Shown here piece by piece: positions 9,634 to 29,699 of a stretch of DNA of 64,000 nucleotides. A model generated the notes under the pieces. The model ran no database searches, was not told where the DNA came from, and was given only the letters and a program-made list of their open reading frames with translations. Source of the DNA: Ignavibacteriota bacterium (GTDB taxonomy: Bacteria; Bacteroidota; Ignavibacteria; SZUA-365); NCBI GenBank assembly GCA_016218045.1, contig JACRFB010000072.1, positions 1 through 64,000 of the forward strand, in the 5' to 3' direction. Made by a program: the position numbers and the translations under genes. How positions within the stretch are numbered: position 1 is the first letter of the stretch; every line of letters begins with the position of its first letter.

Positions 9634-10224
9634 TCAGAAAATCAGATACAGGGTCGGGAACAGGAAAATCCAGACGAGATCCACAAAGTGCCAGTACAGG
9701 CCCAGCGCCTCCACGCGATGGTGCTGCGACTGCGGATAGCCGCGCAGCAGCGACTTGCCGAGCATCCATGCCATGGGAATCATGCCGCCGATCACGTGCG
9801 CAGCATGGAAGCCTGTCATCGTGAAGTAGGTGGCGAAAAAGGTGTTGGTCCACGGATAGATGTGGTGCCCGAACTTCGCGGTGTATTCGATGGTCTTGAT
9901 GATCAGGAAGCCGAAGCCGCAGAGCAGCGTCAGGAACAGGAATAGGCGGAACTGCTTCTGGTCGCCCTTCTCGAGCGCCAGATGCGACAGTGCCATCGTG
10001 AGACTGCTGCTGATGAGCACGGCGGTATTGATGGTCGCAAGCACCTTGTTCAACTCGTGCGCGCTCTCCGTGAACACGTCGATGTGAAGGTTTCGAAGGA
10101 CGAGGAAGGCGCCGAAAAATCCCGTGAAGAACATGATTTCCGACGCGATAAAAATCCACATGCCGAGTTTGGCGTGGACGATGCCCGTGCGTGTGGACGG
10201 AGCCGCTGCGAGTTCGTGGGACAT
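9634..10224 (-). CDS. coxC: Cytochrome c oxidase subunit III
   Basis: 196 residues with five transmembrane segments, the short prokaryotic form of subunit III. It contains the conserved EIMFFTGFFGAF segment, TGFHAAHVIGG and the final YWHFVDLVWIFLF. It lies 9 bases after ctaB and upstream of coxD. Confidence 0.93.
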   Translation of the reverse strand: MSHELAAAPSTRTGIVHAKLGMWIFIASEIMFFTGFFGAFLVLRNLHIDVFTESAHELNKVLATINTAVLISSSLTMALSHLALEKGDQKQFRLFLFLTLLCGFGFLIIKTIEYTAKFGHHIYPWTNTFFATYFTMTGFHAAHVIGGMIPMAWMLGKSLLRGYPQSQHHRVEALGLYWHFVDLVWIFLFPTLYLIF

Positions 10225-10233
10225 GGAGGGACT

Positions 10234-11163
10234 CTACACTTTATCGATGAACATCATGGTCAGAACAGCGAGAAGATACATGTACGACGAAAGCAGCACG
10301 GTCCGCGCGCGTGTATTCGACCGTTCCGCGAGGAAACGCGCCGAGGCGACGAGGAAGGCCGCGCCGAGCACAAATGTGACCGCGAAATACCAGGGCCCGG
10401 TCTCGCCCATCGGCGTGAGGGAAAGACTGAACACCACAAGCGCCGCGGTGTAGGCCAGGACGTGCAACCCGACACGCACGCCGCGCTCGTCCTGTACCGT
10501 CAGCATCTGGAACCCGCCCCGCTCGTAATCCTTGCGGTACATCCATGCAAGCGAAAGGAAGTGCGGCATTTGCCAGACGAAGAGGACGAGGAACAGCACG
10601 AGTCCACCCGCCTCTATGGATCCGCTGCCCATTACCCAGCCGCCGAGCGGCGGAAGAGCGCCCGGAATGCCGCCGACAAGCGTGGCGAGTGACGTGCGTC
10701 GTTTCAGCGGGGTGTACACACCGAGATACAGGAACCACGTTGCGGCCGCGAGCGCCGCCGCGAGAACCGAATGCGCCGCGAGCAGACCGAGTCCGACGGC
10801 GCTGAGCACCATGCCGAAGAAGGCCGCGTGCGCGGGTGCGATGCGGCCCGACGGGATGGGCCGGTCCATCGTGCGTTTCATGCGCAGATCGTAACCGCGC
10901 TCGAGCACGTGGTTCAGCGTGCAGCTTCCCGCGGAGACCAGTGCCGTTCCGGCGAGAGTCACGAGGAAACGCATCGCATAATCCATGGTCAAAACAAGTT
11001 CCGTGTTGCGCGGCAGCGCGAGCCAGAAGCCCGCGGCGGCGCTCACGACAACCATCAGCGTGATGCCGGGTTTTGTCAGCTCGTGATACGCGGCAAAAGT
11101 CTCGCGCCAGCTCAGTCCGCCGACCGCAACCGCGGGCCGTGTTCCGCCGATATCCTGTATCAT
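10234..11163 (-). CDS. ctaB: Protoheme IX farnesyltransferase (heme O synthase)
   Basis: 309 residues, UbiA-family polytopic membrane enzyme that farnesylates heme B to heme O, feeding CtaA. The first prenyl-diphosphate motif reads NHVLERGYDLRMKRT followed by RPIPSG, with Glu replacing the usual first Asp. The second polar loop is RKDYERGGFQML. The ATG at 11163 overlaps the ctaA stop as ATGA; the long upstream open frame shadows ctaA. Confidence 0.93.
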   Translation of the reverse strand: MIQDIGGTRPAVAVGGLSWRETFAAYHELTKPGITLMVVVSAAAGFWLALPRNTELVLTMDYAMRFLVTLAGTALVSAGSCTLNHVLERGYDLRMKRTMDRPIPSGRIAPAHAAFFGMVLSAVGLGLLAAHSVLAAALAAATWFLYLGVYTPLKRRTSLATLVGGIPGALPPLGGWVMGSGSIEAGGLVLFLVLFVWQMPHFLSLAWMYRKDYERGGFQMLTVQDERGVRVGLHVLAYTAALVVFSLSLTPMGETGPWYFAVTFVLGAAFLVASARFLAERSNTRARTVLLSSYMYLLAVLTMMFIDKV

Positions 11164-12146
11164 GCGCGCGCTCCTTCCACGCCCGCAACGCCGGACGGCT
11201 GCGTCTCGCTGAACCGATACCAGCGCGCCGCGCGGAGCCAAGCGAGAAAAATGGTGGCGAAGGTCAAAGCTCCGAAGGCGACATGCAGGGTGTTCGGCAG
11301 TATCGCCTGACGCGTCCAAATCACTGTGGCGCCGAGCGTCGCCTGCACAAGCACGAGCAGCATGGCCGTAATAACTGCGGTGCGAAGTCGCGCGAGTTCG
11401 CGCGCGCGCAGCACCACGATGCCGGCCCAGAATATCGCGATCGTGACAACAAGCGCGCCGACGCGGTGGGCAAAATGTATCACCACGTGCGAGTCGGTAA
11501 AGACCGGTATGATGCGGCCGTTCGAGAGCGGGAAGTCGGGAATGAACGGCGCGCTGTATGTATGCCGCGTGAGCGCGCCCAGGAAGATCTGTACGAAGGT
11601 GAGTAGGACGGCGGCCAGCAGCAGACGCTGTACCGACGCGCCGGCATTCACGCGCTGCGCCGCGCTGCCCGTCATCCATGCGCGTGATGTGGCCGCGGCC
11701 ATGGCGACGGTCATGAGCAGAAAACTCTGCGCCAGCATGGCATGACTGATGGATACCGCCGCGGGCAGTTGCATGAGCACGGTAAGTCCGCCCAGCACGC
11801 CTTGCACAATCACCGACAGCAGCGCCACACCTGCGAGTACTTTCATCCAGCGACGCTTGTCCACAAACCACACCATCACGGCGACGATGATGGTGATGAA
11901 TCCTATTCCTGACGCTATGAGACGGTGGCCATGTTCAAATACGATTCCGCCCGTCCATTTTTCAATCGGGTAGGTGAACATGTTCTCGCCGTAAGTGGTC
12001 GGCCAATCGGGCACGGAAAGTCCCGCGCCGGCGCTGTGGACGAGTCCGCCCTTCGCGATGAGCAACACGGTGCCCACGGCGAGGATTACCGCGATGCGGT
12101 GCAGCCAGCGCTGTGATGTGGTAAAGGTGATGCGTTCGATGCTCAT
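11160..12146 (-). CDS. ctaA: Heme A synthase (COX15/CtaA family)
   Basis: 328 residues with about eight transmembrane helices in two similar halves. Heme-ligand His motifs are visible: EHGHRLIAS and SHAMLAQ in the first half, HFAHRVGAL and NTLHVAFGAL in the second. It oxidises the heme O methyl group to make heme A for subunit I. It starts 7 bases after coxA and overlaps ctaB. Confidence 0.93.
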   Translation of the reverse strand: MSIERITFTTSQRWLHRIAVILAVGTVLLIAKGGLVHSAGAGLSVPDWPTTYGENMFTYPIEKWTGGIVFEHGHRLIASGIGFITIIVAVMVWFVDKRRWMKVLAGVALLSVIVQGVLGGLTVLMQLPAAVSISHAMLAQSFLLMTVAMAAATSRAWMTGSAAQRVNAGASVQRLLLAAVLLTFVQIFLGALTRHTYSAPFIPDFPLSNGRIIPVFTDSHVVIHFAHRVGALVVTIAIFWAGIVVLRARELARLRTAVITAMLLVLVQATLGATVIWTRQAILPNTLHVAFGALTFATIFLAWLRAARWYRFSETQPSGVAGVEGARA

Positions 12147-12153
12147 GGCTGCC

Positions 12154-13977
12154 TCACCCGTTTTCGCTTCCGGACTGCTTCTCGCGTGCCAGGTGCTCGG
12201 CCATGCGGCGCGTCACTTCGTCAGGCGGGAGCGTCTGCGGCAGATAGTCCTGCACGGATTCTGGCGAACTGTACTCGTAGGGGCCGCGGTACACGCGCAG
12301 CGGCTTGTCGAAGTTGCCGTGCGGCGGCGGTGACGGCGCCTCCCATTCGAGCGTGTTCGCGCGCCAGGGATTGCGGCGCGCAGCGCGGCCCTTCACAAGA
12401 CTGTGGATCAGCGCGGCGACGAGAATGAACTGCGCGAAGCCCAGTATGATCGCGTTCACCGTGATGAATTCGTTCATCGGTTGAAACGGTTTGAGGAAAT
12501 CGTACACGGTCGGATCATAGATGCGCCGCATCATTCCTCCCACACCCAGAATGTGCATCGGGAAAAACGTGAAGTTGAAGCTCACGAAGGTGATCCAGAA
12601 ATGCAGCTTGCCGAGTCCTTCGTGCATCATGCGCCCTGTCATCTTGGGCCACCAGTAAGTGAGTCCGGCGAACACCGCAAACAGGCTTCCGCCGAAGAGC
12701 ACGTAGTGGATGTGACCGACGATGAAGTATGTGTCGTGTATGTACACGTCGACCGGCGTCGAGGCCATGAATATGCCCGAGAGCCCGCCGATGACAAACA
12801 TCGACACAAAGGCCACGGCGTTGAGCATCGGCGTGGTGAATTCCATCTGGCCACGCCACATCGTACCGAGCCAGTTGAAGGTTTTAATCGCCGAAGGGAC
12901 AGCGATGACCATGGTGCTGATCATGAATGTTGTGCCGAGCAGCGGATTCATTCCCGACTGGAACATGTGGTGTCCCCACACGATGATGCCGAGGAAAGCG
13001 ATCGCGATGATGGCGAACACCATGGCCTTGTATCCGAACAACGGCTTTCGCGAGAACACGGCCAGCACGTCCGACACCACACCCATCCCGGGAAGGATCA
13101 TGATGTACACGGCCGGATGCGAATAGAACCAGAACAGATGCTGCCACAGAAGCGGCTGACCGCCGCCCGCGGTGCGCGCAAGGTCCTTGCCGGGCGCCAC
13201 AAGATTTGCGGGCAGGAAGAAACTCGTGTGCAGGAAATTGTCCATGAACAACATGGCCAGCGCCGAGGCGAGGACGGGTGTGCCGATGATGATGATGATG
13301 GCCGTGATAAAAATCGCCCAGACGGTCATCGGCATCTGGAACAGCCCCATGCCCGGCGCGCGCATATTGAGCACGGTGGTGATGTAGTTCAGTGCGCCGA
13401 GTATCGATGAGAAACCGACGATAAACAGCGCCACGATCCAGAGAGTCTGGCCTGTGCTTGCCAGGGCGCTCAAGGGCGGATATCCGGTCCACCCTGCCGC
13501 GGCGGATCCGCCTTCAACCCAAAATCCCGCCATCATGAGCGCTCCCGCCACGGGGAACATCCAGAACGAGATCATGTTGATCGTTGGAAAGGCCATATCG
13601 TCGGCCCCGATCATCAGGGGTACGCAGAAGTTTCCGATCATGCCGACAAGCAGTGGAATGATCACGGCAAAAATCATGACGCTGCCATGCATGGTCAGAA
13701 GCTGCGCGTAGAAATCGGCGGTGACCGCGCCTTCGGGACTGACCCAGGTCGAAGGCAACAGCGTGCCGATGACGGGAATGGGTTTGCCGGGATAAGCGAG
13801 CTGCCAGCGGATGAACAGTGCAAACGCGCCGCCGATGAAGAGGAACAGCAGCGCGGTGACCATGAACTGCTTCGCGATCATCTTGTGATCGGTCGAAAAT
13901 ATGTACGTGCGGAGGAACGAGGCGTGATGCGTGTGGTCCGTGGTCTCGTGCGCGTGCGCGGTGAGTGTGGCGTCCAT
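12154..13977 (-). CDS. coxA: Cytochrome c oxidase subunit I, A2-type
   Basis: 607 residues, twelve core transmembrane helices plus a C-terminal extension. The heme a and a3/CuB ligands are visible: MHGSVMIFAV, the CuB site FYSHPAVYIM, WGHHMF, and HDTYFIVGHIHYV. The usual Glu of HPEVY is Ala and the preceding residues are Tyr-Ser, which defines A2-type heme-copper oxidases such as those of Rhodothermus and Thermus caa3. The proton-gating Glu is therefore replaced by the YS motif. It lies between coxB and ctaA. Confidence 0.96.
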   Translation of the reverse strand: MDATLTAHAHETTDHTHHASFLRTYIFSTDHKMIAKQFMVTALLFLFIGGAFALFIRWQLAYPGKPIPVIGTLLPSTWVSPEGAVTADFYAQLLTMHGSVMIFAVIIPLLVGMIGNFCVPLMIGADDMAFPTINMISFWMFPVAGALMMAGFWVEGGSAAAGWTGYPPLSALASTGQTLWIVALFIVGFSSILGALNYITTVLNMRAPGMGLFQMPMTVWAIFITAIIIIIGTPVLASALAMLFMDNFLHTSFFLPANLVAPGKDLARTAGGGQPLLWQHLFWFYSHPAVYIMILPGMGVVSDVLAVFSRKPLFGYKAMVFAIIAIAFLGIIVWGHHMFQSGMNPLLGTTFMISTMVIAVPSAIKTFNWLGTMWRGQMEFTTPMLNAVAFVSMFVIGGLSGIFMASTPVDVYIHDTYFIVGHIHYVLFGGSLFAVFAGLTYWWPKMTGRMMHEGLGKLHFWITFVSFNFTFFPMHILGVGGMMRRIYDPTVYDFLKPFQPMNEFITVNAIILGFAQFILVAALIHSLVKGRAARRNPWRANTLEWEAPSPPPHGNFDKPLRVYRGPYEYSSPESVQDYLPQTLPPDEVTRRMAEHLAREKQSGSENG

Positions 13978-13983
13978 GTTCTG

Positions 13984-14784
13984 CTACCTGCTGGAAGATT
14001 GTACGGGTGTGGGCGCCTCGTCGAGCACCGAGGGCTTCGGGGCATTGGCGGCAGCGAGGCGCGCGTTCTCGCCGTCCATCCACGTGTCGAATGCGCTCTG
14101 CGCCTTGATGTCGAGTACGCCGCGCATGAGGTAATGGCCGCTGCCGCAGAGTTCGGCGCAGGCTATTTCGTACTCGCCGGTCTTCGCGCCGTTGAACCAC
14201 ACATTCACCCACTGACCGGGAATCGCGTCTTGTTTGACACGCATGTTGGGCAGGAAAAAGCTGTGGATGACGTCCATCGACGAGAGATGCACGAGCACGG
14301 TCTTGTTCACGGGAATGGTGAGCCGGTTGATGGCCACGATGTCGTCCTTGCCGTTCGGATCCGCGGCATCGATGCCGAAGGGATTCGTGGCGCTGATGAA
14401 CTTCTGCTCGCGATGACCGAAGATGCCGTCGGACCCGGGATAGCGGAAATGCCACATGTACGTCTGCCCCATCACTTCCACTTCGAGGTCGGGATTCGGC
14501 GTGTGCGACGCGTACTTGATGTCGCGCCAGATGCCGTCGCTGTAGAACGCCAGGAAAAGAAAGAGTCCGAAGGGCAGCGCCGTCCATGCAAACTCGAGCA
14601 GGTTGTTCCCGTGGTGATGGTACGCGCGGTCGGTCTTGCGCCGACGGCGGTACTTCACGATGAACACCACGTACACAATGTTGACGAGCACGAAGATGCC
14701 GACGGTGATGTAGTAGATCAGGGCGAAGAGGTGATCAACGCCTTCCCCGAATGTGGAGATATTTTCAGGCAACCAATCGAGCAT
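13984..14784 (-). CDS. coxB: Cytochrome c oxidase subunit II
   Basis: 266 residues from the ATG at 14784. Two transmembrane helices precede the cupredoxin domain. CuA ligands are visible: DVIHSFFLPNM supplies the first His, and CAELCGSGHYLM gives C209, C213, H217 and M220. There is no fused cytochrome c domain; a separate lipoprotein cytochrome c precedes the gene. I chose this ATG because AGGA lies 9 bases upstream; an in-frame TTG at 14823 would add 13 residues. The 158-base gap before it holds no other feature I can name. Confidence 0.93.
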   Translation of the reverse strand: MLDWLPENISTFGEGVDHLFALIYYITVGIFVLVNIVYVVFIVKYRRRRKTDRAYHHHGNNLLEFAWTALPFGLFLFLAFYSDGIWRDIKYASHTPNPDLEVEVMGQTYMWHFRYPGSDGIFGHREQKFISATNPFGIDAADPNGKDDIVAINRLTIPVNKTVLVHLSSMDVIHSFFLPNMRVKQDAIPGQWVNVWFNGAKTGEYEIACAELCGSGHYLMRGVLDIKAQSAFDTWMDGENARLAAANAPKPSVLDEAPTPVQSSSR

Positions 14785-14942
14785 GGACAGGGATCCTGTG
14801 AATGAGCGATACGTCTCGGACAATCCGCCCTGGACCTGCCGGTCAGGGTGGTGCGCGTTTGGTGACTCGTCATGTCCCGTATGCGGCGGAAATCCGGCCG
14901 CGCAACGGGAGAGAGGTGCTGTCTATCGTATGGAAGAGGTGA

Positions 14943-15515
14943 TTATTTCGTCTTGAGTAACTCTGGCTCGGTATAGGCGCCGACCTTGCCCTTTGTGGCG
15001 TCGCGGACGGTTTTCACCGCGGCCGCATCCACAGCAGGTGCGCTGTTGCCCCAGCTTGAACGGACGTATGTCAACACATCGGCAATCTGCTGATCACTCA
15101 GCTCGTTTTGCCACGGCTGCATCACACCGTTATAGCTCTGCCCGCCTCGCGAGATGGGCCCCTGGAAGCCATGGAGCACAATCTGAATGGGCAGGGTAGG
15201 GTCGCCCGTCGCCAGCTCCGAACCCGCGAGGGACGGATACACGGCGGGTATACCTTTGCCTGTCATCTGATGGCACACGGCGCATTTTTGGTTGAAAATG
15301 GCCGCGCCCGGTCCGCCGCTGCCGCCCGCTCCCGGCTGCGCGCTTTGTTGCGCGACATCCTTCGGATCGGGCGTCCATTCCGGCGGCTCCCCGTCGCCAG
15401 TGAAGGCGTAACAGCCCACCAAAATCAGCGCGGGAAGCGCCGACACGAGCACCGTGTATACGATGCGGAGATGGGCGTGGCGGAGAAGTGTATGTATGTA
15501 TGGACGATTCGTCAT
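14943..15515 (-). CDS. Lipoprotein monoheme cytochrome c
   Basis: 190 residues. The signal peptide ends in the lipobox LVGC (C35), so it should be lipid-anchored outside the membrane. A Gly/Pro/Gln-rich linker leads to one class I heme domain: CAVCH at 78-82 and the likely axial Met M132 in NGVMQPW. As the first gene of the cox/act run it is a good candidate for the electron carrier between the Act complex and the CuA site. The ATG at 15515 was chosen because upstream codons do not form a signal sequence. Confidence 0.88.
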   Translation of the reverse strand: MTNRPYIHTLLRHAHLRIVYTVLVSALPALILVGCYAFTGDGEPPEWTPDPKDVAQQSAQPGAGGSGGPGAAIFNQKCAVCHQMTGKGIPAVYPSLAGSELATGDPTLPIQIVLHGFQGPISRGGQSYNGVMQPWQNELSDQQIADVLTYVRSSWGNSAPAVDAAAVKTVRDATKGKVGAYTEPELLKTK

Positions 15516-15643
15516 GTGGCAATAACGGATAATGACCAAGCCTGTTCCGCCGTTTTGCAACAACGGTGAGGCGGTTTCGGATGCGCTTCGACCTGATCGT
15601 CCGATGAGGTCTCCGCGGTGATGTCACCCGTGAATGGATCTAA

Positions 15644-15671
15644 TTTATATGTGCCGTATCCGAAAAAGCAA
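15644..15671 (-). promoter_or_regulatory. Probable sigma-70-like promoter of the cox/act operon
   Basis: On the minus strand TTGCTT (-35, 15671-15666) and TATAAA (-10, 15649-15644) are separated by 16 bases. The -10 box is about 130 bases before the cytochrome c start at 15515. It is the only strong promoter-like match upstream of the run. Confidence 0.5.
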
Positions 15672-15758
15672 ATTATTTTTTCCGGCGTCCTTCCACGGTA
15701 CACAAAGTTCCCGCATTCGACACAAATTCACGACTAACACGCGAGGCGCTGCGACGGC

Positions 15759-17357
15759 TCACTGGGCTGTTGCGGTCAGCACGTCGGCGACGGCGCCGGT
15801 CAGTTCTTCGAGCCGTATGGGTTTCGGCAACACGCGGCGGATGTTCAGCGTATTCCATCGGTCACGATCAGCCGACAAGTCATACGCGCTCATGAGAATC
15901 ACGGGAATGCCGCTTCCGAGCGAGAGGATGCGTCGGGCCAGTTCGGCGCCGCTCATTTCACTCATCGAAAAATCGGTGATCACCAGACGCGCATCACAAT
16001 CCGGATTCTCAAGCATCGTGATGGCCTCAAAGGGATCGCCAAAGGACGAGACGCGGTACCCCGCGATTTCGAGCAGTTCGTGCATACCTTCGCGTATGAC
16101 CGGATGGTCGTCCACAACCAGCACATGTTCACCCTTTCCACCGGCTCGTTCGAAGCTGTCCCCCGCCGCCTCATTCTTTACGGCACATTCCGGGAAAGCG
16201 ACTTCGAACAGGGTACCGTTGCCGGGCGCGCTCTGCACGTTCACACGCGCGCCGTGCTCCTGCACGATTTTTTGTACCACGGCGAGTCCCAATCCCGTGC
16301 CTTCGGCGGCCGGCTTCGTCGTAAAAAACGGTTCAAAGATGCGCACGCGTGTGGACTCCTCCATGCCAGGACCGTCGTCGGCGATGCGCAGAAGTATCTG
16401 CCGTGTGTGGCCGTTTCCTGCCGCGCGTGATGCGGCCGTCTGCTGTTCCGACACGCTCACGCTGATGCCGATATGCCCCGGCCTGCCGCCCATCGCCTGC
16501 CAGGCGTTGGTGACAAGATTCATGACGAGCTGCTGGACTTGAACGGCGTTATACGACGCCATGTGTCCCGCATCGTGTGCCTCGAGCTCGATCTGCACAT
16601 TGTGGGGTTTCACTGTCTCAAGCAGGCGTACGGCATCACGCACAGGATCCGACAACACACCCTCTGTGCGTGTAATCTCGCCCGAGCGGCTGAACACCAG
16701 GACCTGTCGCAGCGTGTCGGAGGCCTGCTGCGCCGCTTCAATGATCCTGTCGAGATGCTCGGCCACAAGTGGAGAATCGGATGAACGCCGGGCCGATCTG
16801 CCGTCAATGCCGATGACGGTCAACATTGTGTTGACGTCGTGCACAACGCCGCTCGCGAGCTGTCCAATGGTCTCAAGCCGCTGCGCGTGTCGTAGCTGCG
16901 CTTCGAGTTTGCGTTGGGCGTCCTCGGCCCGCGCGCGTTCGCGTGTTTCGGCCGCTTCCCGCAAGGCACGATCGACGGCCGGACCGAGACGCGTCAGACG
17001 ATCCTTGAGAAGATAATCCGATGCGCCGGCGCGTATCGAATCGACGGCGGTCTCCTCGTCGATGGCGCCGGAAATGATGATGAAGGGCAGATCGGGCCTT
17101 TCACGCTTGACGAAGCTCAGAGCGGCCGAGCTGTTGAAGCGCGGCATCGAGTGGTCGGAGAACACGATATCCCATTCGCGCGATGACAGGCAGCGCGCAA
17201 CACCCTCTCTCGTGTCGACTCGTTCCCACTCAGGGACATATCCGTACCGCGTAAGTTCACGCAGGATAAGGATGGCGTCCGATTCCATGTCCTCAATCAA
17301 CAGAACGCGGACCGGGATGCCGCTCCCTTGTGCTGCTGCGTCGTGTACCGTGTCCAT
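15759..17357 (-). CDS. Hybrid sensor histidine kinase, REC-HisKA-HATPase-REC
   Basis: 532 residues, no membrane segment, so cytoplasmic. An N-terminal receiver (phospho-Asp D68, Lys K118) leads to a short coiled coil, then a HisKA-like helix with H173 in VVHDVNTML. The ATPase domain has an N-box (N280/N284), DDGPGM near 327 and GTGLGLAV near 353. A second receiver follows (acidic pair DD 416-417, phospho-Asp D462, Lys K512). It probably takes phosphate from or passes it to partners in the same cluster. It lies 11 bases after the receiver-only gene. Confidence 0.9.
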   Translation of the reverse strand: MDTVHDAAAQGSGIPVRVLLIEDMESDAILILRELTRYGYVPEWERVDTREGVARCLSSREWDIVFSDHSMPRFNSSAALSFVKRERPDLPFIIISGAIDEETAVDSIRAGASDYLLKDRLTRLGPAVDRALREAAETRERARAEDAQRKLEAQLRHAQRLETIGQLASGVVHDVNTMLTVIGIDGRSARRSSDSPLVAEHLDRIIEAAQQASDTLRQVLVFSRSGEITRTEGVLSDPVRDAVRLLETVKPHNVQIELEAHDAGHMASYNAVQVQQLVMNLVTNAWQAMGGRPGHIGISVSVSEQQTAASRAAGNGHTRQILLRIADDGPGMEESTRVRIFEPFFTTKPAAEGTGLGLAVVQKIVQEHGARVNVQSAPGNGTLFEVAFPECAVKNEAAGDSFERAGGKGEHVLVVDDHPVIREGMHELLEIAGYRVSSFGDPFEAITMLENPDCDARLVITDFSMSEMSGAELARRILSLGSGIPVILMSAYDLSADRDRWNTLNIRRVLPKPIRLEELTGAVADVLTATAQ

Positions 17358-17368
17358 CTGATGCTCTC

Positions 17369-17854
17369 CTAGTTGTCTGGTTGACCGGATGGAGCTTCGT
17401 CCAAAAGTAACCAGTATAAACCAAGATCACGAATGGCGGAAAATAAATTCTTGAATTCGACCGGCTTGATGATATGGCCGTCGGCGTCGTTCCCGAGGCG
17501 CCGGAATTGCTCCACTTCTTCACGCGAGGACGCAAGCATCAGAACGGGTATCGACCGCAACACCGGATCCATCTTGAGCCGCCGTAAAACTTCCTGTCCA
17601 TCCACCTTCGGGAGCTTCATGTTCAGCAACACAAGCTTCGGATGTATGGTGACCCCGGCCGCCGCACCGGTGGTTTTTCCGAAAAGAACTTTCAACGCCT
17701 CATCGCCGTCTTTCACCCACACGACCGCGTTCGTGAGGCGGTACTGTCGCAGGGAATGGAACAGCAGTTCTGCGTCGTGGGGATTTTCCTCGACGAGAAG
17801 AATGTCGACGCTCTCGCCGCGGATGCCGGCATCCATGATCATCGCTTCATCCAT
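17369..17854 (-). CDS. Single-domain receiver with Asn at the phosphorylation site
   Basis: 161 residues, a stand-alone receiver resembling the Rcp1 type found beside phytochrome-like kinases. The acidic pair is E22-E23, the Ser switch is S109/S110 and the Lys is K130. The expected phospho-Asp is Asn78 (LVLLNMKLPKVDG); the codon reads AAC on the coding strand. It should not be phosphorylated in the normal way, so it may work as a constitutive or purely binding pseudo-receiver. It sits between two kinases on the same strand. Confidence 0.88.
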   Translation of the reverse strand: MDEAMIMDAGIRGESVDILLVEENPHDAELLFHSLRQYRLTNAVVWVKDGDEALKVLFGKTTGAAAGVTIHPKLVLLNMKLPKVDGQEVLRRLKMDPVLRSIPVLMLASSREEVEQFRRLGNDADGHIIKPVEFKNLFSAIRDLGLYWLLLDEAPSGQPDN

Positions 17855-17962
17855 CCGATGGGGAGTGCTTCACACGCGGCGGACACGTGCCGACCTGTGG
17901 CCTGCAGGCCCTGAATACACATCGCGGGCGGCGTGGTGTTATTGCCTGGTCGCATTCGCATG

Positions 17963-20155
17963 TCACACGTGCGGTGTGTGTGTGTCGGGTGTATGGAGCG
18001 GCATCAGTAGCGTAAACGTCGCCCCGCGGCCCTCCTCGGCGTACACACTGATAATCCCGCCGTGCCGCTGCACGATGCGGCGGACTATGGCCAGGCCCAC
18101 CCCGGTCCCTTGATACTCATGAAACGAATGCAGTCGTTGAAACACGCCGAACAATCGATCGGCGTAATTCATGTCGAACCCGACGCCATTGTCGCTGATT
18201 GTGTACCGTGCCCAGCCGTCCTCAACCACGCCGTTGATCTCGACGCGCGCCACTTCCCTCTCCTGCGTGAACTTCAGCGCATTGCCTAGCAGATTCACCC
18301 ATACCTGCCGGAACAACGTCGCGTCGACAGGCGCAGGTGGCAGGGGCGCGCATGATATTTCCACGGTGCGCGAGCCGATGTCGCGCAACAAGTCGTCACA
18401 CACCGACTGCACCAATGCGTGCACATCGGTGCTTTTGCAACGCAACCCCTGTTTTCCCAACCGGGAAAAAGCCAGGAGGTCATCGATGAGCTGCCCCATA
18501 CGAATCGCTTCATTGCGCACCACGGACAATAGACGACGGCCTTCGACATCGAGGCGATCCGAGTGTTCCTCCTCGATGATGCGGGCGAATCCGTCGATGG
18601 CGCGCAGTGGCGCCCGCAGATCGTGCGATACGCTGTATGTGAACGATTCGAGATCGCGGTTCGCTTCCATGAGTTCCTGCGTGCGTTCCATGACACGCTG
18701 CTCCAATGAATCGTTCAGATTGTTCACCTCCTGCACGGCGCGACGCAGGTGGTCCTCCGATTCGCGCAGTTGCTGCTCACTGCGCACGCGGTCGGTGATG
18801 TCGCGAAAACTCGCCGCGAATCGGCCCGGGGAAGTGCGGAACGCGTGCACTTCGAAGTACTTGTCGAGAGGCGCGGCAAAGTCGATGAATTCGAGCTCCT
18901 CGCCCAGCAGAGCGACACGTGCGTATCTCTCGATCCACGCCGGATCGAGTCCAACAAGCGTCTCGGAAACCCGCTTCCCGATGATCTGTTCGCTCTGTAA
19001 TCCGGTCTGTTTTTCAAACGCGGGATTGATGGAAAGAAAGATGTAATCGACGGCATTCCCCTTTTCGTCAAGTACCATCTCATGCAGCGCAAACGCGTCC
19101 AGCATATTGCTGAACAGTGCGCGGTAGCGTTCCTCGCTTTCGACAAGCTTCATCTGCGAGAAATACAGATTTTCGTAGTGCTTCCTTTGTGAACGCTGCG
19201 TCAGAAATCCGAACGCGATGATACCGATGGCGATGATCGAGACCATAACCAGAAGCAGGAAATGAACCGGTGTTCCCAGCGAGGCCATGGCCTCTTCCTC
19301 GTCTATTTCCACGGCAAGATACCACGGTGTACCCGAGACGGGACGCACCATGCTCAGCACGTCGTGGTTCCTGTAATCCTTGCCGGTTTGCAGCCCGTAT
19401 TTCCCGTACACTGCCCGGACTGCGATCATGTCACGACGCGAGACGGGTACACGGAGTCGCATCGCCCCCGAGTTGAGAATACGCGAGTTGTTCAAGTACA
19501 GAATGTCGTTGCCGTCGCGGCGGAAGAGCAGGCATTCCCCGGTGCGAGTTGGAATGGGATACGCGTCCAGTATCGGATAGAGCGACCTCTCCGCTCCGAC
19601 ACTAAGTAAAAGCGCCGCCATGTGCCGCGGTCCGTTTTCTCCCGGCCACACGAGAGGGGTGACGACATCGAGATGCGGCGGCAGCAACGTGTCGATCACA
19701 TGGAGATCCGTAATAACGGGGACGCCTCGTTGCAGGGCGGCGGAAAGAGAATCACGCGCATCCGCCCGGATAGCTGCCTCTGTGCCGGCGTTCAGATTCA
19801 GAAGAATTCTGCCCGTCGTATCCACGATGCGGATGTTTCTGTAGTGATACCGCTCCTGCAATGCAACCAAACGCGACATCATCGCTTGTTTCAACGCGGG
19901 ATCCCGCCGCTCCAGCCAGCGCGCGAGATCCTCACGGAAATGCAGTCCTTTCATCCATTCCCTGGCCTCGCCAAGCTGATTCTCGCGCCAGGTATGGAGC
20001 TGGGCCAGAATACTTTCATGGATCGCCAGCAATTTCTGCTGTTCCTGATGCATCACGGAATCGCGCTGCCATCGATAGAACAGATATGCAGAGCCCGCAG
20101 CCGCACATGCGAACAGGACGAGGAGAAGAATTTGCCGACGAGGTGGAGCTTTCAT
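17963..20155 (-). CDS. Membrane sensor histidine kinase with extracytoplasmic sensor and PAS domain
   Basis: 730 residues. Transmembrane helix 1 (about 8-27) and helix 2 (about 297-318) bracket a roughly 270-residue external sensor domain of Cache-like organisation. Then come a PAS/PAC domain (about 338-460), a coiled coil, HisKA with H511 in SVSHDLRAPLRAI, and HATPase with N621/N625 (NLLGNALKF), DNGVGFD near 655 and GTGVGLAI near 683. This is the phytochrome/bacteriophytochrome-like kinase architecture without a chromophore domain. The signal it senses is unknown. Confidence 0.9.
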   Translation of the reverse strand: MKAPPRRQILLLVLFACAAAGSAYLFYRWQRDSVMHQEQQKLLAIHESILAQLHTWRENQLGEAREWMKGLHFREDLARWLERRDPALKQAMMSRLVALQERYHYRNIRIVDTTGRILLNLNAGTEAAIRADARDSLSAALQRGVPVITDLHVIDTLLPPHLDVVTPLVWPGENGPRHMAALLLSVGAERSLYPILDAYPIPTRTGECLLFRRDGNDILYLNNSRILNSGAMRLRVPVSRRDMIAVRAVYGKYGLQTGKDYRNHDVLSMVRPVSGTPWYLAVEIDEEEAMASLGTPVHFLLLVMVSIIAIGIIAFGFLTQRSQRKHYENLYFSQMKLVESEERYRALFSNMLDAFALHEMVLDEKGNAVDYIFLSINPAFEKQTGLQSEQIIGKRVSETLVGLDPAWIERYARVALLGEELEFIDFAAPLDKYFEVHAFRTSPGRFAASFRDITDRVRSEQQLRESEDHLRRAVQEVNNLNDSLEQRVMERTQELMEANRDLESFTYSVSHDLRAPLRAIDGFARIIEEEHSDRLDVEGRRLLSVVRNEAIRMGQLIDDLLAFSRLGKQGLRCKSTDVHALVQSVCDDLLRDIGSRTVEISCAPLPPAPVDATLFRQVWVNLLGNALKFTQEREVARVEINGVVEDGWARYTISDNGVGFDMNYADRLFGVFQRLHSFHEYQGTGVGLAIVRRIVQRHGGIISVYAEEGRGATFTLLMPLHTPDTHTPHV

Positions 20156-20326
20156 CCGTATGCCGTTCCCCAGCAGAAATACCGTATATCAGGTTTCGAG
20201 TACAACGCATGAATACAAAATACCCGCACTCTGCATCCTGGCTCTCGCTCCCACGAGACCGGATATTGAGTAACATACGAGGGCTGCAAACGCGTCGTCC
20301 CTCAGGTGCAGATGTGCTGTGTAGCA

Positions 20327-20359
20327 ATTATAAGCTGTATTTATCCTATTTTTTTTCAA
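20327..20359 (-). promoter_or_regulatory. AT-rich promoter candidate upstream of the sensor kinase
   Basis: The 343-base gap 20156-20498 is much more AT-rich than its surroundings and includes two T-runs. On the minus strand TTGAAA and a perfect TATAAT occur 21 bases apart, longer than ideal. TATAAT lies about 170 bases upstream of the kinase start at 20155. Apart from this and the terminator at 20448-20472 I see nothing in the gap. Confidence 0.35.
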
Positions 20360-20447
20360 GAATCAAGAACAAAGTATCGGGTAAGGTCTTTTTTTTTTGG
20401 CCACACGGCAGCAAGTGGCACGTTCTAGGAAGGGCACAAATACAAAC

Positions 20448-20472
20448 GGCGGGAGGGTTGAGCCCGCCCGCC
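20448..20472 (-). terminator. Probable terminator of thioredoxin gene
   Basis: A 10-bp stem with one mismatch (GGCGGGCGGG against CCCTCCCGCC on the minus strand, loop CTCAA) lies 27 bases after the trxA stop. It is followed by the T-rich GTTTGTATTTG. Confidence 0.65.
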
Positions 20473-20498
20473 GCATGAAGAGAGGATTGTGCGACCGA

Positions 20499-20837
20499 TC
20501 AGTTCACCAGGATCACATCCGCGTGTTTGTCGACAGTCGCCTGCAGCATGCGTTTCGGAACTGCTCCGACAACTGTATCCACAAGCTGTCCGCCCTTGAA
20601 AAATCCGATTGTCGGGATACCGCGGATGCCATAACGGGTGGCCGATTCGAAGTTGTCGTCGGTGTTCAGTTTCACAAACTTAACCCGGCCGGCATACTCG
20701 CCCGCGAGTTCTTCGATGACGGGAGCGATCATGCGGCAGGGACCGCACCAGGGCGCCCAGAAATCGACCACGGTCAATGTTGCGGCGTCAAGAACTTCGG
20801 TTTTGAATGTTGCGTCTGTTACATCGATGGGATGCAT
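20499..20837 (-). CDS. trxA: Thioredoxin
   Basis: 112 residues, the normal length, with active site [11 protein letters not shown] near residues 29-39, the cis-Pro in [10 protein letters not shown], and the conserved Asp/Lys pattern. It is a cytoplasmic general disulfide reductase. The ATG at 20837 has GGAG 6 bases upstream; the longer open frame upstream is non-coding in appearance. It has its own promoter candidate and terminator, so it is probably monocistronic. Confidence 0.95.
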
Positions 20838-23421: not shown

Positions 23422-26400
23422 CTATCGTGACAAACTCATCGGTCTGACGTGTACCTGGTCGCCCACCGCGAGACGCGCAAAATACACGCCGCTTGGGAGT
23501 CCCGTGGCATCAAAATAGGCTGCATGTTCCCCCGCGGCGAAAGGACCGTCCAGCACACGCCGCACGAGACGACCAAACGAGTCGAACACCTCGAGCCGCA
23601 CGTGTGCGCCCGCCATGCCGGGTGCGAGGGCAAAAGGAATCCAGGTGCCCGGATTGAACGGATTCGGTCGGTTCGGTCGCAGTGCAAAGCGTTCGGAGCC
23701 CGCGAGCGGGATGAGGCAGTCGCCGGTTGTCACCACGTCGCCGTGTTCAAGCTCGACCCGGATACCGTCGGCGACAAGCGGATCGGTCAGGGTCAGATCC
23801 GACAGTTTGACGCCGAAGGGATTCTCGGTGCCGTCGCCCGACAAGGCCCGCAGGCGCAACAACACCAAGGCCCCGGCGCCGGCAAGCGGCTGCGTCCCGC
23901 TCCCGCCTATCGTGACGTGGCCGGACGTGTCGAGCGTGAACTGCAGCGCGGGCCATGCCGCCGTGAGTGTGCCTGCCTGCAGTATCCCCTCGATCTGCAC
24001 TGTGGCAGGATCATAGACGACGGATGTCTGGAAATACGCAACCGTGGCCTGCGTGGGATTCGTGAAGTTCAAGGGGATGGTGATCGCCTGTCCGCTGCGC
24101 ACAACATTGCCCCGAGGTATGGACAGACGTATCTCGCGGTACACCCGCTCGATCACCGTGACAGGTTCGCAGGTCTGCGCGGCCGCTCCCTGTGTTTCGA
24201 CACGCACGATGAAACGCGCGCTGCGGGTTTCTTCCGACAGCGACGGAACGCAGGACCATGTGAGCGTCGCCCGCTGCGAGGGTGGCAGCGGCGCCCCGAG
24301 CGATTTAGTCTGATTCTCGCCCGGACTCAACGTCGCACCGGCCGGCATACTGATCGTCGCCTGCACATTGAGCAGCGGCATCGTGCCGGTATTGGCAATC
24401 TCGACGGACACGCTGAACGGCGAGGGCTGCAATCCAATTTGCGCGTTCACGAATCGTATGGAATCGGGTGCGGTGCATGCGACGCGGAATGCGGTCGTGT
24501 CGAACGACGGAGGCGGCGGCAGCACGAGTATGTCGCGGTCGCAGTATCGCACGCCGTCGCTGCTCGAGAACTGCACACGCACGCGGCGCAGCTTCTCCAC
24601 GGTCGACGTGTCCCGCACGACATCGACCAGCCACTGCACGGTCTCGCGCGCCGCGGGCGCGATATTCAGGAGCCGTTTGTCCGCCGTTTCTCCCGCCGCA
24701 AGCTGCAGGCCCGCGGGCAACACAAGCAACGCATGCACCGAGTCGATCGCGCGTGGTGTGGGATTGTGCACTTCGGCGGTGACGAGAATCGGATTCGGAT
24801 ATCCGTTATTCTGGATGCTGAACGCCACGGTGTCGGGCGCGGCGCAGGCGACGAGTATCCCGCCGCCGGGCAGCGGCGGCAGCCAGATCTTGGTGCAGCA
24901 CGACTGTTCGCCTCCGCGACGCGACACGAGCCGCAGGCACACCTCCACCGAATCGCCCGTGGCGCCGGGGGTGGCGTGGAAATTCCACAGGAATTCGGTC
25001 TGCGCACCCTTGGCGAGAGTCCCGCGGAGTTTCACCGCGCTGTCGCCTCCGCGCTGCAGCCGGCCGTGGCTCAACACCGACGCGGCAAGCTCGAAGGCCT
25101 CGCCGTCGCCGTCGTTGCGCACAACAAGACGTATCGCAAATGGATCGGGTGTGTACACGGCGCCGTTCACCGCAAGTTCGGACACGGGTGCGCACGAGAG
25201 TGTCAGTCGCGGAGCGCGCGTCGCGGGCACAGACACGGGCGTGAAACAGGGCTGCGTGATGGCGAGTACGCGGCCGCGAGAGCGGACCTGCGCGCGGAGC
25301 GTGTCTATGCGCCCGACCGTTCGCGGCACGGCGACAACGCGCCATTCGGCAAAGCCGCTCTGCCCCTCGGTGAGCCGCGACGGCGTAAGAAGTTTCACCG
25401 GCTGCTCGCCTGCATCAAGTGTGATGTCGGGGGGCGGCAGGAATTCGGCGGTGACGGAGTCCGCGGGAGCAGTGCCTACATTGCGCGCGGTGAGACGCAG
25501 GATGAAGGGAGTGGGCACGTAGGCGCCGAGCGAATCGACGTAGAACAGCGAATCGGGGGCCGTACACGTGAGTTCCAGCAGCGGTGCGCGCACACCCTCG
25601 ATCCAGATGATCTTCTCGCAGACGATGGCGCCGCCGTTGGCAGCGTATACCGTGACCCTGATGGTGTCGTGGCGTGAGACGGTCCGGTCGAGCACGTCGA
25701 TCAGGAAACGACCCTGCACCGACGCGCCGCCCGGCAGTGAATCGACGAGCTGCTTCAGCGCGCGGTCCGCCGCGTTAATCGACAGATCCGCTCCCTGCAG
25801 GAGAGCCGCGAAGACGGTGCGCGCCGGCGATGTGCCGACATTCTGCACCGAGAGATCGAGCGTTATCGGATTCGGCACGTACGAGCCGTCGACCGATCGC
25901 ACAGTGTCGGGACCGGACAGCGAGCAGGCGAGCACGGGCGCCGCGAGGTCGGTCTGCACCCGCACGGGTGTGCAGCAGCGGCCGCCGGGGTAGTTGGATG
26001 CAAACACGTCGATGCACACCTGGGCCCCATCGACGGGCGGCGCGCTCGCCACGACAACCCAGGCGATGGTCACGCTGTCGCCGGCCTGCACCACCGCGCC
26101 GTTTGGCGCGTCCTTCACCTGGCGCTCACCCGGGGCGAGAGTCAGAAACGACGGAAGTGTGATCGATGCCCGCGCCTGTGCCATGTCGATGCCGGAGATG
26201 TTGCGCACCGAGGTGGTGACCAGGAATTGCGGGGGATCGTACACGCCCTTCTCCTCGTCGTACTTGAGAAAGACGGGATTGCCACAGACGAGAGCCGCCC
26301 GCACGGGCGAGGATGTGACGAAGAATTTCTCGCAGCATATCGTCGTGTCACCACCGGCGGCAGCCCGCACACAAATGGTCACGGTGTCGGATGTCATGCG

Positions 26401-28347
26401 GTCGTTCACACGCAACAGCCAGGTCACACGACCGGTGTCGGACTGCGCCAACGCGGATGGTGTCAGAACCGTCTCGCGCGGCGTTGCTGCATCGAGTGTG
26501 AAACCGTCGGGCACGTCGATCCACGCGGCGGCGGGACGCGCGGTGATCGGACTCACATTCCGCACGGTGAGGGTCACCGGCAGCACCGCCGGGATGTACG
26601 ACTGCGCGCTGTCGCTCCACCGCGCCTCGCGCGGCATCACAAGCGCACAACGCAGCGCGGGACGCGCGGCCTCGGTCACTATCCTCGTGCAGCACTCCGT
26701 CGCTGCGCCGCTGTCGGGCTTGACGGTCACACACACGACGTACTCGCGCGCGGTGTCTGTCGGAACAATCTGCGCCCGGAACGTGACGGTCTCGAACGCG
26801 TTTTGTCCCAGATCACCGAAGAGGCGCACGGTATCGCTGGGCGAGGTCAGGACCATGCCGGGCGGTAGCGTTATCCATGCGCGTGTATTGCGCGCCACAA
26901 TGTCGGAACTGTTGCGCACCCCGGTGCTGAACACGAGTTCGTTCGGCGCGTAGATTGCCGCGTTGGGGTCCCACGCAACCTGAAGGGTGTCGATACATGT
27001 GATGCCGAGCACGGGTCGGCGGTACACGCGGTAATCCGACGAGGAGACACGGAGCAGCATGCACTGCTGGGTGTTTTTATCGACGTAGAACAGCATCAGC
27101 GGCATGGTGCTGTCTTTCGCGAAGGAACGCGTTTTGAAATGCAACACCATCAGCGTGTCCTCGCCCATGAGCGAGGCCGAGCCGTCGAGATGAAAGAGCA
27201 GTGTATCGACGCTGCGGCTGGTGCTGACGGTGAAGTTCTTCGCGAAGTAGGGATCCGTGATCGCGCGGTGAAAATCCACCGAATCCTGATGCAGTATCTT
27301 AAAATCGAGCCGGGAGATGTCGGCGCGCGATCCGATGGCGGAGATCATCACCGGTATGTACAGGTCGCCGTTCTCGTAGGCCTCGGCTGTTTCGAAACGG
27401 ATGTTCACAGAAGGCAGCGTCTGATCGATGGGCGCCCTGTAGCGCGCTGTGGCTGTGACGGTCTTGCCGCAGGCCTGCGCGGTCACCACCGCCGTGCGCA
27501 TCGATCCGTCGGCACATTCCACCTTGTACTCGATCACGCAGTCGTTCACACCTCCGGTGATCAGCGTCTGTATTGCGCGGAAGGCCGGAACGATATCGTC
27601 GGGGTGATACATCGGGAAAAAGAGACCGCCGGTCGAATCGGCCAGCATGCGCATATTTGCGACGGCCGTCGGCGTGGTGTGATACATCAGGCACATCGTG
27701 TACACGGGGATGCCGTGCTGGCGCGCGAACCGGATGGCGTCGGGCAGATCCGCGGTACTCTGGTTGTCGTCGCCGTCGCTCAGCACGACCACAGCCTTGA
27801 TCGGATTGGTGCCGTTCACCGCCACTTCGTTGATGCCGAACATCACGCCGTCCCACAGGGCCGTGTTCCCCCACGGGAAAATCTTCGAGATGGCTGAATA
27901 GAGGAGCATCTGGTCCGATGTCATCGACTGGTCGACGGTGACATCCTCCGAGAAGCTGATGATTGCGCCCTCGTCGGTGCCGGTCGGATGCTGCTGGAAA
28001 AGACTGACAAACTGCGCCGCGCCCTGCTGTATGCGGTATATGGTGGTTCCGGCGACGGATCCGCTGCGGTCGAGCACCAGCGCCACCGACATGGGTACGG
28101 TTTGTGACGGACAGTTGACCTTGAACGTGCGCGCCACGCCGTCCACCACCTCGATGTCGACCTGGTTCAATCCGCTGTACTGCACGCCCTTGCAGTACGC
28201 GCGCACGTGCACACGGATCGTGGGATACCCGCTTGTATCGATGCGGACGATGCGCAGCGTGTCGTCATCGGCCCGCATCCGCTGTGACGGAAGCAGGAGC
28301 ATGATTCCGGCCAGCAGGAGCAGCAGCAGGGAGCGCGGTGTATGCAT
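23422..28347 (-). CDS. Giant T9SS-secreted surface protein with VWA domain and eight CARDB/DUF11-like repeats
   Basis: 1641 residues. The signal peptide spans residues 1-26. A von Willebrand A domain (about 80-270) has MIDAS residues DRSGS, TALWDG and LSDGDD. A cohesin-like beta domain follows. Then come eight roughly 110-130-residue modules, each opening with a Cys-Ile/Ala-hydrophobic start, a Y-x-P-x turn and a VRN[VSDI]G-type strand. A second cohesin-like domain and a C-terminal T9SS type A sorting domain (PNRPNPFNPGTW ... LPSGVYFARL ... MSLSR) end the protein. It should be surface-attached or released and may bind metal-dependent ligands. An upstream GTG at 28356 would give a GTGA overlap with the next gene. 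Confidence 0.88.
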   Translation of the reverse strand: MHTPRSLLLLLLAGIMLLLPSQRMRADDDTLRIVRIDTSGYPTIRVHVRAYCKGVQYSGLNQVDIEVVDGVARTFKVNCPSQTVPMSVALVLDRSGSVAGTTIYRIQQGAAQFVSLFQQHPTGTDEGAIISFSEDVTVDQSMTSDQMLLYSAISKIFPWGNTALWDGVMFGINEVAVNGTNPIKAVVVLSDGDDNQSTADLPDAIRFARQHGIPVYTMCLMYHTTPTAVANMRMLADSTGGLFFPMYHPDDIVPAFRAIQTLITGGVNDCVIEYKVECADGSMRTAVVTAQACGKTVTATARYRAPIDQTLPSVNIRFETAEAYENGDLYIPVMISAIGSRADISRLDFKILHQDSVDFHRAITDPYFAKNFTVSTSRSVDTLLFHLDGSASLMGEDTLMVLHFKTRSFAKDSTMPLMLFYVDKNTQQCMLLRVSSSDYRVYRRPVLGITCIDTLQVAWDPNAAIYAPNELVFSTGVRNSSDIVARNTRAWITLPPGMVLTSPSDTVRLFGDLGQNAFETVTFRAQIVPTDTAREYVVCVTVKPDSGAATECCTRIVTEAARPALRCALVMPREARWSDSAQSYIPAVLPVTLTVRNVSPITARPAAAWIDVPDGFTLDAATPRETVLTPSALAQSDTGRVTWLLRVNDRMTSDTVTICVRAAAGGDTTICCEKFFVTSSPVRAALVCGNPVFLKYDEEKGVYDPPQFLVTTSVRNISGIDMAQARASITLPSFLTLAPGERQVKDAPNGAVVQAGDSVTIAWVVVASAPPVDGAQVCIDVFASNYPGGRCCTPVRVQTDLAAPVLACSLSGPDTVRSVDGSYVPNPITLDLSVQNVGTSPARTVFAALLQGADLSINAADRALKQLVDSLPGGASVQGRFLIDVLDRTVSRHDTIRVTVYAANGGAIVCEKIIWIEGVRAPLLELTCTAPDSLFYVDSLGAYVPTPFILRLTARNVGTAPADSVTAEFLPPPDITLDAGEQPVKLLTPSRLTEGQSGFAEWRVVAVPRTVGRIDTLRAQVRSRGRVLAITQPCFTPVSVPATRAPRLTLSCAPVSELAVNGAVYTPDPFAIRLVVRNDGDGEAFELAASVLSHGRLQRGGDSAVKLRGTLAKGAQTEFLWNFHATPGATGDSVEVCLRLVSRRGGEQSCCTKIWLPPLPGGGILVACAAPDTVAFSIQNNGYPNPILVTAEVHNPTPRAIDSVHALLVLPAGLQLAAGETADKRLLNIAPAARETVQWLVDVVRDTSTVEKLRRVRVQFSSSDGVRYCDRDILVLPPPPSFDTTAFRVACTAPDSIRFVNAQIGLQPSPFSVSVEIANTGTMPLLNVQATISMPAGATLSPGENQTKSLGAPLPPSQRATLTWSCVPSLSEETRSARFIVRVETQGAAAQTCEPVTVIERVYREIRLSIPRGNVVRSGQAITIPLNFTNPTQATVAYFQTSVVYDPATVQIEGILQAGTLTAAWPALQFTLDTSGHVTIGGSGTQPLAGAGALVLLRLRALSGDGTENPFGVKLSDLTLTDPLVADGIRVELEHGDVVTTGDCLIPLAGSERFALRPNRPNPFNPGTWIPFALAPGMAGAHVRLEVFDSFGRLVRRVLDGPFAAGEHAAYFDATGLPSGVYFARLAVGDQVHVRPMSLSR

Positions 28348-28352
28348 GTGAC

Positions 28353-29699
28353 TCACAATGGGTGCGCGTTTGTCGCGGTATGTGTCACACCCGATGCGTC
28401 GAACGACGACAACACACGCTGCACCGGCGGCGGCGCGGAGGGGGTGAGTGTGAAGGCCGCCGCGGCGGTATCGCGGAAAGGCGCAAGTGTCGTTTGAGCG
28501 GAGGAATAGAGCCGGCAGAGTCGGTCGCCCGCATGGACGGCGTCCCCGCGTTGTGCATCGAGCACGATGCCCGCCGTGGGATCGATGACGTCGTCGGTAT
28601 GGCGGCGGCCCGCGCCGATCTCCACGGCAACAAGCCCGAGGGTCCGCGCGTCAATGTCCGCAACGTAGCCGTCACGTTCGGCCAGCACGTCGATGCCGCA
28701 CTTGGGCACGGGGAACAGCAGCGGTTCGTCGATATACGCTGGATCACCGCCCTGCGCTTCGACGATGTCGAGTAGTTTTCTGAAGGCGAGGCCGCTGCGT
28801 ATCATTTCACGCGCGATGACACTCCCCTCCTCCGCATCGGCCGCCTTGCGGCCCTCCGCGATCATCATGCCCGCGAGACGCAGTGTGACATCGAGCAGAT
28901 CGGCACGGTCCTCCCCGCGCAGGCATTCGATGGTCTCTATCATTTCGAGATGGTTTCCGATCGCGCGTCCCAGCGGTTCATCCATGCGCGTGACTAGACC
29001 CGTTACGCGGAGGCCAAAATGTTCTCCCACGCGGCAGAGCAGCGCCGCGAGATGCACCGCCTCGTCGTGTGATGTCATAAAGGCGCCGCGGCCGCATTTG
29101 ACATCGAGCACCAGCGCCTGCGCGCCACCCGCGATCTTTTTGCTCATGATGCTCGCGGCGATGAGTGGATGGCTGTCGACCGTGGCAGTGATGTCGCGCA
29201 GGGCGTAGATGCGGCGGTCGAGCGGCACGAGCGTCTCGCTCTGTCCCGCAAACACGGCGCCGCATCGCTGCAGGACATCCGTGAACTCCGCCTCCGACAG
29301 CCGCGTGCGGAAGCCGGGAATACTCTCCAGTTTGTCGAGCGTGCCGCCGGTGTGACCCAGTCCTCGTCCGGATATCATCGGCACCGGCACGCCCGCTGCG
29401 GCCACTATGGGCGCGAGCAGCAACGACACCTTGTCGCCCACGCCGCCCGTCGAATGTTTGTCGACCGTGACGCCGGGTATCGTCGAGAGATCGAGCCGGG
29501 CACCCGAATCGAGATAGGCGCCCGTCAGCGCGATCGTCTCGTCAAAGGTCATCCCGCGGAAGTACACGGCCATGAGCATCGCCGACATCTGCGCGTCGGA
29601 AACGTCGCCCTGCACATATCCGCGGAGGAATCCGCGCAATTCTTCTTCGCGCAGTGCGGCGCCGTTGCGCTTGTTCCGGATGATTTCCTGTGCGAGCAT
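28353..29699 (-). CDS. deoA: Pyrimidine-nucleoside/thymidine phosphorylase
   Basis: 448 residues. The N-terminal helical domain (AQEIIRNKRNG ... SAMLMAVYFRGM) leads to the phosphate-binding signature VDKHSTGGVGDK near 79-90, SGRGLGHTGGTLDKLESI, and the C-terminal DVDI-type barrel. It cleaves pyrimidine nucleosides with phosphate for salvage. I cannot separate thymidine-specific from broad-specificity forms by reading alone. The stop nearly touches the next gene, the T9SS protein, an odd pairing. Confidence 0.93.
   Translation of the reverse strand: MLAQEIIRNKRNGAALREEELRGFLRGYVQGDVSDAQMSAMLMAVYFRGMTFDETIALTGAYLDSGARLDLSTIPGVTVDKHSTGGVGDKVSLLLAPIVAAAGVPVPMISGRGLGHTGGTLDKLESIPGFRTRLSEAEFTDVLQRCGAVFAGQSETLVPLDRRIYALRDITATVDSHPLIAASIMSKKIAGGAQALVLDVKCGRGAFMTSHDEAVHLAALLCRVGEHFGLRVTGLVTRMDEPLGRAIGNHLEMIETIECLRGEDRADLLDVTLRLAGMMIAEGRKAADAEEGSVIAREMIRSGLAFRKLLDIVEAQGGDPAYIDEPLLFPVPKCGIDVLAERDGYVADIDARTLGLVAVEIGAGRRHTDDVIDPTAGIVLDAQRGDAVHAGDRLCRLYSSAQTTLAPFRDTAAAAFTLTPSAPPPVQRVLSSFDASGVTHTATNAHPL

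Follow-up and report, generated by a model that had tools for sequence, protein, structure and literature searches.

A BRR/Rcp1-like receiver between two kinases of an Ignavibacteriota bacterium is best read as a pseudo-receiver

What role is left to a single-domain receiver that stands between two kinases and lacks the aspartate found throughout its family? The question is raised by an open reading frame at 17369-17854 on the reverse strand of a 64,000-nucleotide stretch of contig JACRFB010000072.1 from an Ignavibacteriota bacterium (the window, meaning the whole stretch of DNA that was analysed). The gene starts with ATG and encodes 161 amino acids in a frame without internal stops. An earlier note on this DNA had called the product receiver-only, and so it is: Pfam recognizes a single Response_reg domain (PF00072; score 49.7 bits, threshold 30.2) and nothing else. 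By PDB sequence matching, the nearest solved structures are AtBRR (5BRJ, E 4.7e-30) and RtBRR (5IC5, E 4.6e-29), with RcpA, RcpB, DrRR and Rcp1 next, within the first ten matches. An AlphaFold model displays receiver topology (mean pLDDT 67, pTM 0.67), and Foldseek ranks 5brj first and 5ic5 second; built from two sequences and of modest confidence, the model serves fold assignment only. Similarity in sequence and fold, together with the position of the gene beside a kinase of the BRR-partner type, places the protein in the BRR/Rcp1-like family. With its structurally solved members (AtBRR 5BRJ, RtBRR 5IC5, RcpA 1K68, Rcp1 1I3C and DrRR 6XVU), it shares receiver-only architecture, length, a C-terminal GLYWLLL segment and a place next to a kinase of matching type.

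For comparison we collected, from retrieved loci, 118 distinct relatives by their similarity to the protein and aligned them with it. These rows are the matches whose sequence was retrieved, a part of all listed matches; most belong to the class and phylum of this bacterium, four are from the protein's own genome, and seven partial matches were dropped. All 118 relatives carry Asp at the phospho-acceptor position, where this protein has Asn78 (codon AAC, 17621-17623, reverse strand as for every codon given here), just as the earlier note had read it. Asp is likewise present in the seven dropped matches and in a hybrid-kinase match, L049 (8/8). Three further positions have changed. The metal-binding position DD2, Asp in every relative, is Glu23 (GAA, 17786-17788); the Thr/Ser switch position (Thr in 105 relatives, Ser in 13) is Ala108 (GCG, 17531-17533); and the K-3 aromatic of Y-T coupling (Tyr in 100, Phe in 18) is His127 (CAT, 17474-17476). 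Glu23 and His127 were missing from the changes first listed for this protein, and the claim that a Ser switch residue is kept was wrong, since the serine in question is Ser109, at T+1, the position after the switch, where relatives have Ser (106) or Thr (12). The pocket lysine, by contrast, is kept as claimed (Lys130, AAG, 17465-17467; Lys in 118/118). At DD1, relatives have Glu (110) or Asp (8).

Four of the six switch positions are lost in total, leaving Glu22 and Lys130 as survivors. Set against the Asp-Asp-Thr/Ser-Tyr/Phe-Lys of the relatives, the series here is Glu-Asn-Ala-His-Lys, and the canonical BRR phosphorylation site of Asp, acidic pair, Thr/Ser and Lys is absent (E22 E23, N78, A108, K130). 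Because four separate switch codons are altered, a single base-call error cannot explain the pattern, and sequencing error was ruled out as the source of Asn78. Recognition by PF00072, combined with a missing acceptor Asp and missing key phosphotransfer residues, is what characterizes an aspartate-less receiver, or pseudo-receiver. Judged by its residues, the protein appears to be related to BRRs by descent while no longer being a working canonical response regulator. Our best reading is that a BRR-type single-domain receiver has turned into a true pseudo-receiver in this lineage, one whose receiver signature is still there, as are the pocket Lys and the prolines and glycine of the loops, but whose alpha4-beta5 region is remodelled. 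The earlier description of the protein as phosphorylation-independent is well supported by the sequence, with the acceptor Asp, the DD2 Asp, the Thr/Ser and the Tyr/Phe all lost; since most of the phosphate switch is gone, the protein probably works in its pathway without phosphorylation.

Searches for further relatives covered several collections. Identity to the 161-residue protein peaked at 48% in 391 genomes of the class, and the best-scoring new row among 395 genomes of the phylum reached 44%. Scanning named genomes yielded three loci. One, L047 in a Planctomycetota MAG (47%), is canonical; of the others, L048 is a partial match and L049 the hybrid-kinase match, and both keep the acceptor Asp. 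A tblastn search of plasmids matched 417 records, all below 60% identity. In the 391 genomes, a degenerate DNA pattern for Leu-Leu-Asn-x-Lys-x-Pro occurred, by eye and among the matches listed, about as often as its reversed control, and it carries no weight here. The Asn/Ala/His pattern was seen in one genome only.

As the earlier note had stated, a kinase and a REC-kinase-REC hybrid flank the gene on the same strand, the former upstream and the latter downstream; the note's label of PAS kinase is less secure, with the PAS matches just under the Pfam cut-offs. The sensor kinase (17963-20155, reverse strand) has an N-terminal sensor with a weak, likewise sub-threshold dCache match, followed by PAS, HisKA and HATPase regions. 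Its H, N, G1, F and G2 boxes are all present, as in 18 relatives. The H-box, SHDLRAPL, has Asp at H+1 and Ala at H+4, the same residues as in Agp1, which is active as a kinase, and unlike the phosphatase DrBphP (PMC8292422; here and below, papers are cited from excerpts). The 532-residue hybrid (15759-17357, reverse strand) carries HD, N-box, DDGPG and GTGLGL motifs, with a clear HATPase match and a HisKA match below the Pfam cut-off (21.5 versus 26.9 bits). Both of its receivers lie on the reverse strand: REC1 (17001-17306) is canonical (E-D, D, S, Y, K), and REC2 (15789-16124) is canonical at D-D, D, S and K, with Val at K-3. Since the flanking kinases look intact and the hybrid's receivers are canonical, phosphate would have an outlet without the middle protein. 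A gap of 108 bases (17855-17962) separates the sensor kinase from the ATG of the pseudo-receiver; at another locus, L264, about 22 bases lie between the kinase stop and the first BRR ATG. Scanning 15560-20500 returned no promoter-like (sigma-70-like) site and 10 terminator-like sites with short stems (shuffle mean 4.3), to which we give no weight.

The gene order of kinase, BRR and REC1-type protein recurs. Of 23 BRR-like rows, drawn from 21 loci, 14 had both neighbours by the criteria of a script, among them rows from L109, from a genome of the same family, and L039, from the protein's own genome. The closest architecture is that of L264, where the sensor kinase is homologous end to end (32% over 724 columns), the BRR is canonical in a 150-residue open frame, and the REC-kinase-REC third gene runs off the contig end. 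Canonical BRRs also occur at L094, whose 544-residue REC-kinase-REC third gene is 30% identical over residues 15-529, and at L105, with a third gene of the REC-kinase-REC type. When the hybrid was used as the query against 61 genomes, most matches spanned the kinase and second REC only; near-full-length matches were found at G026:C42 (27%) and G054:C25 (30%). Across the homologous trios examined, Asp is the rule, with this lineage as the exception. Asp in orthologues had been expected to mark Asn78 as a private mutation. The homologous trios do have Asp, and among the genomes examined this lineage alone shows the change, the 100 relatives listed including none of the same genus; yet it is not one mutation, with four of six switch positions lost. 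The protein's own genome holds a natural internal control at L039 (G000:C59:140500-160000), a kinase/receiver cluster whose two canonical BRRs include one that is part of a full trio. Counting L039 twice, with L040 and L042, this genome has four canonical BRR rows besides the present gene.

The main rival of the pseudo-receiver reading is a decaying or relaxed remnant, in which the hybrid's receivers made a former phosphate-relay BRR redundant and the gene is drifting without a role. We consider this doubtful. Consistent with it, the gene is known from one genome only, and the four canonical BRR rows of that genome could substitute for it. Its long branch points the same way. Maximum-likelihood trees of 15 trios gave the middle gene a tip of 1.32 (other tips: median 0.35, maximum 0.66), with tips at this locus of 0.73 for the kinase (others: median 0.46, maximum 0.78) and 0.66 for REC1 (others: median 0.52, maximum 0.84). 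Among the three trio genes, only the middle one has an outlying tip at this locus, which we also count in favour of the pseudo-receiver reading. When residues 108-129 are removed along with the remaining switch residues, its ratio to the median falls from 4.0 to 2.9; alpha4-beta5 has therefore changed the most, but other parts share in the excess; relaxed constraint would also give such an excess outside the switch. In the 119-row tree the tip is 1.54, with its placement not resolved, and because two rows with canonical residues have comparable tips (L162, 1.74; L180, 1.53), a long tip alone is no proof of a pseudo-receiver. A regression on pairwise identity did not single out the middle gene, whose mean residual of -0.075 equals that of the canonical BRR trio L039 in the same genome. 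The maximum-likelihood tips of the trios do single it out; we think that pairwise identity saturates at this distance.

How the changes are distributed argues against a remnant. The frame is full-length, with no stop and no shift. Of 24 positions conserved in at least 90% of relatives, 18 are kept, and the six losses all fall in the switch or in alpha4-beta5 (Fisher p 0.0006, for regions defined post hoc and with part of the alpha4 signal possibly stemming from a two-residue alignment shift); as many losses or more are seen in two of the 118 relatives. Mean identity to the relatives is 0.27 in alpha4, compared with 0.54 +/- 0.08 among the relatives themselves, and 0.13 in beta5, compared with 0.61 +/- 0.12, and for neither segment is any of the 118 relatives as low. 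Residues 115-125 are ambiguous, reflecting either substitutions or a two-residue shift plus an insertion, but His127 at K-3 is safe from this ambiguity because it is anchored by Lys130. Beta1, beta3 and the C-terminal segment show ordinary conservation, and that of beta1 and the C-terminal segment counts against a remnant. In alpha1, the putative kinase-docking helix, mean identity is 0.37 versus 0.50 +/- 0.08, and 11 of the 118 relatives are as low; by this measure the helix is not specially conserved, which counts against a kinase-docking reading.

If the protein is a pseudo-receiver, how might it act? By analogy with known systems, we put the chances at about even that it binds some member of its own cascade and acts in this way without being phosphorylated, the partners in such contacts probably being the neighbouring kinases. 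The role of scaffold or decoy in this cascade, proposed in the earlier note, is plausible given the recurrent trio and the intact kinase motifs. Presumably unable to take a phosphoryl group itself, the protein would let kinase phosphate pass instead to the hybrid's canonical receivers, or to other BRRs of the cell. Binding the kinase or the hybrid stoichiometrically, it might tune autophosphorylation or docking in the fashion of FixT and Osp, and the direction of the effect could be to inhibit, to activate or to scaffold. A more specific version, which we offer tentatively, is that the phosphate carrier of the trio became a phosphate-blind docking subunit that may gate the passage of phosphate from the sensor kinase to the receivers of the hybrid or inhibit a kinase, its output face at alpha4-beta5 rebuilt for the new contact.

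FixT and Osp are receiver-only inhibitors of FixL and CckA autophosphorylation whose own phosphorylation was not observed, according to the excerpts (PMC7078487, PMC9430884). Like them, our protein is a single-domain receiver-like protein, and its action would be independent of its own phosphorylation. Inhibition has been demonstrated for FixT and Osp, whereas here it is a prediction. In Osp the Asp is present and the acidic pair and Lys are missing, opposite to the present protein (PMC9430884), and Caulobacter FixT has a four-Cys Fe-S motif (PMC7078487), whereas the 161-residue protein has no Cys. Aspartate-less receivers resemble it in lacking the phospho-Asp, in Ala being a common change at the T position, and in mostly keeping the pocket Lys and the first acidic residue; a receiver-only BRR-family member in a kinase/BRR/REC trio is not described in the excerpts of the same papers (PMC4395418, PMC12632262). 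CmrT, of the Clostridioides difficile CmrRST system, is also an atypical receiver whose operon encodes a kinase and a normal receiver as well (PMC12632262), but it is an OmpR-family regulator (PMC12548384), whereas our protein has no output domain. A search of an open-access full-text library found no paper joining Rcp1, response regulator and pseudo-receiver, which is not proof of absence.

A less likely alternative is that the protein is a constitutively active or inactive output protein, acting on a downstream target or heterodimerising with the cell's canonical BRRs, and controlled by its expression level rather than by the neighbouring kinases. Members of the BRR family dimerise via alpha4-beta5-alpha5 or arm-in-arm (PMC8292422), and it is in alpha4-beta5 that this protein has changed most. 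Expression control of a constitutively active pseudo-receiver has been proposed for CmrT (PMC12632262). Against this, the gene does not stand alone but has a kinase on either side. Deamidation of asparagine is favoured by a following glycine, and Asn78 is followed by Met instead. Residual phosphorylation, at another pocket residue or at Asn78 after deamidation, is highly improbable: the pocket does retain Lys130 and Glu22, plus Glu23 as the second acidic residue, and is less degraded than that of most aspartate-less receivers (the second acidic residue is acidic in only 29%; PMC4395418), but the loss of the Thr/Ser and of the aromatic argues against a retained phospho-switch.

The pseudo-receiver reading adds one more member to a class of degenerate receivers that is already known and fairly common. 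Asp-less receivers make up ~4% of receivers in the survey of Maule et al., cited in PMC12632262, which puts bacterial pseudo-receivers at ~6%; Asn is the second commonest acceptor replacement, at 16% (PMC4395418). In the present genome, 4 of the 60 receiver domains found lack the acceptor Asp. Given this count and the published ~4-6%, a degenerate receiver is expected in a genome of this kind. Less expected is that the pseudo-receiver holds the BRR place in a trio and is not an orphan: characterised atypical bacterial receivers are greatly enriched for orphans, and the on/off control of pseudo-receivers has been called a mystery (excerpts of PMC12632262). Its flanking kinases look intact and the other examined trios carry a normal receiver, which allows a direct comparison of canonical with degenerate trios.

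The other three Asp-less receiver domains of this genome have Glu (G000:C59:141461-141760), Ser (C60:43565-43888) and Met (C63:9287-9532) at the acceptor position, the last being a partial match within a frame of ~1000 residues. Within the window, the trio adjoins what by eye is a cytochrome c oxidase gene group (9634-15563, reverse strand), whose cytochrome c (14943-15563) was the member examined with Pfam. On the other side lies an open reading frame of 1644 residues (23422-28356, reverse strand); inspection by eye suggests a von Willebrand-A-like N-terminus, a series of repeated conserved segments and a sorting-like C-terminal end.
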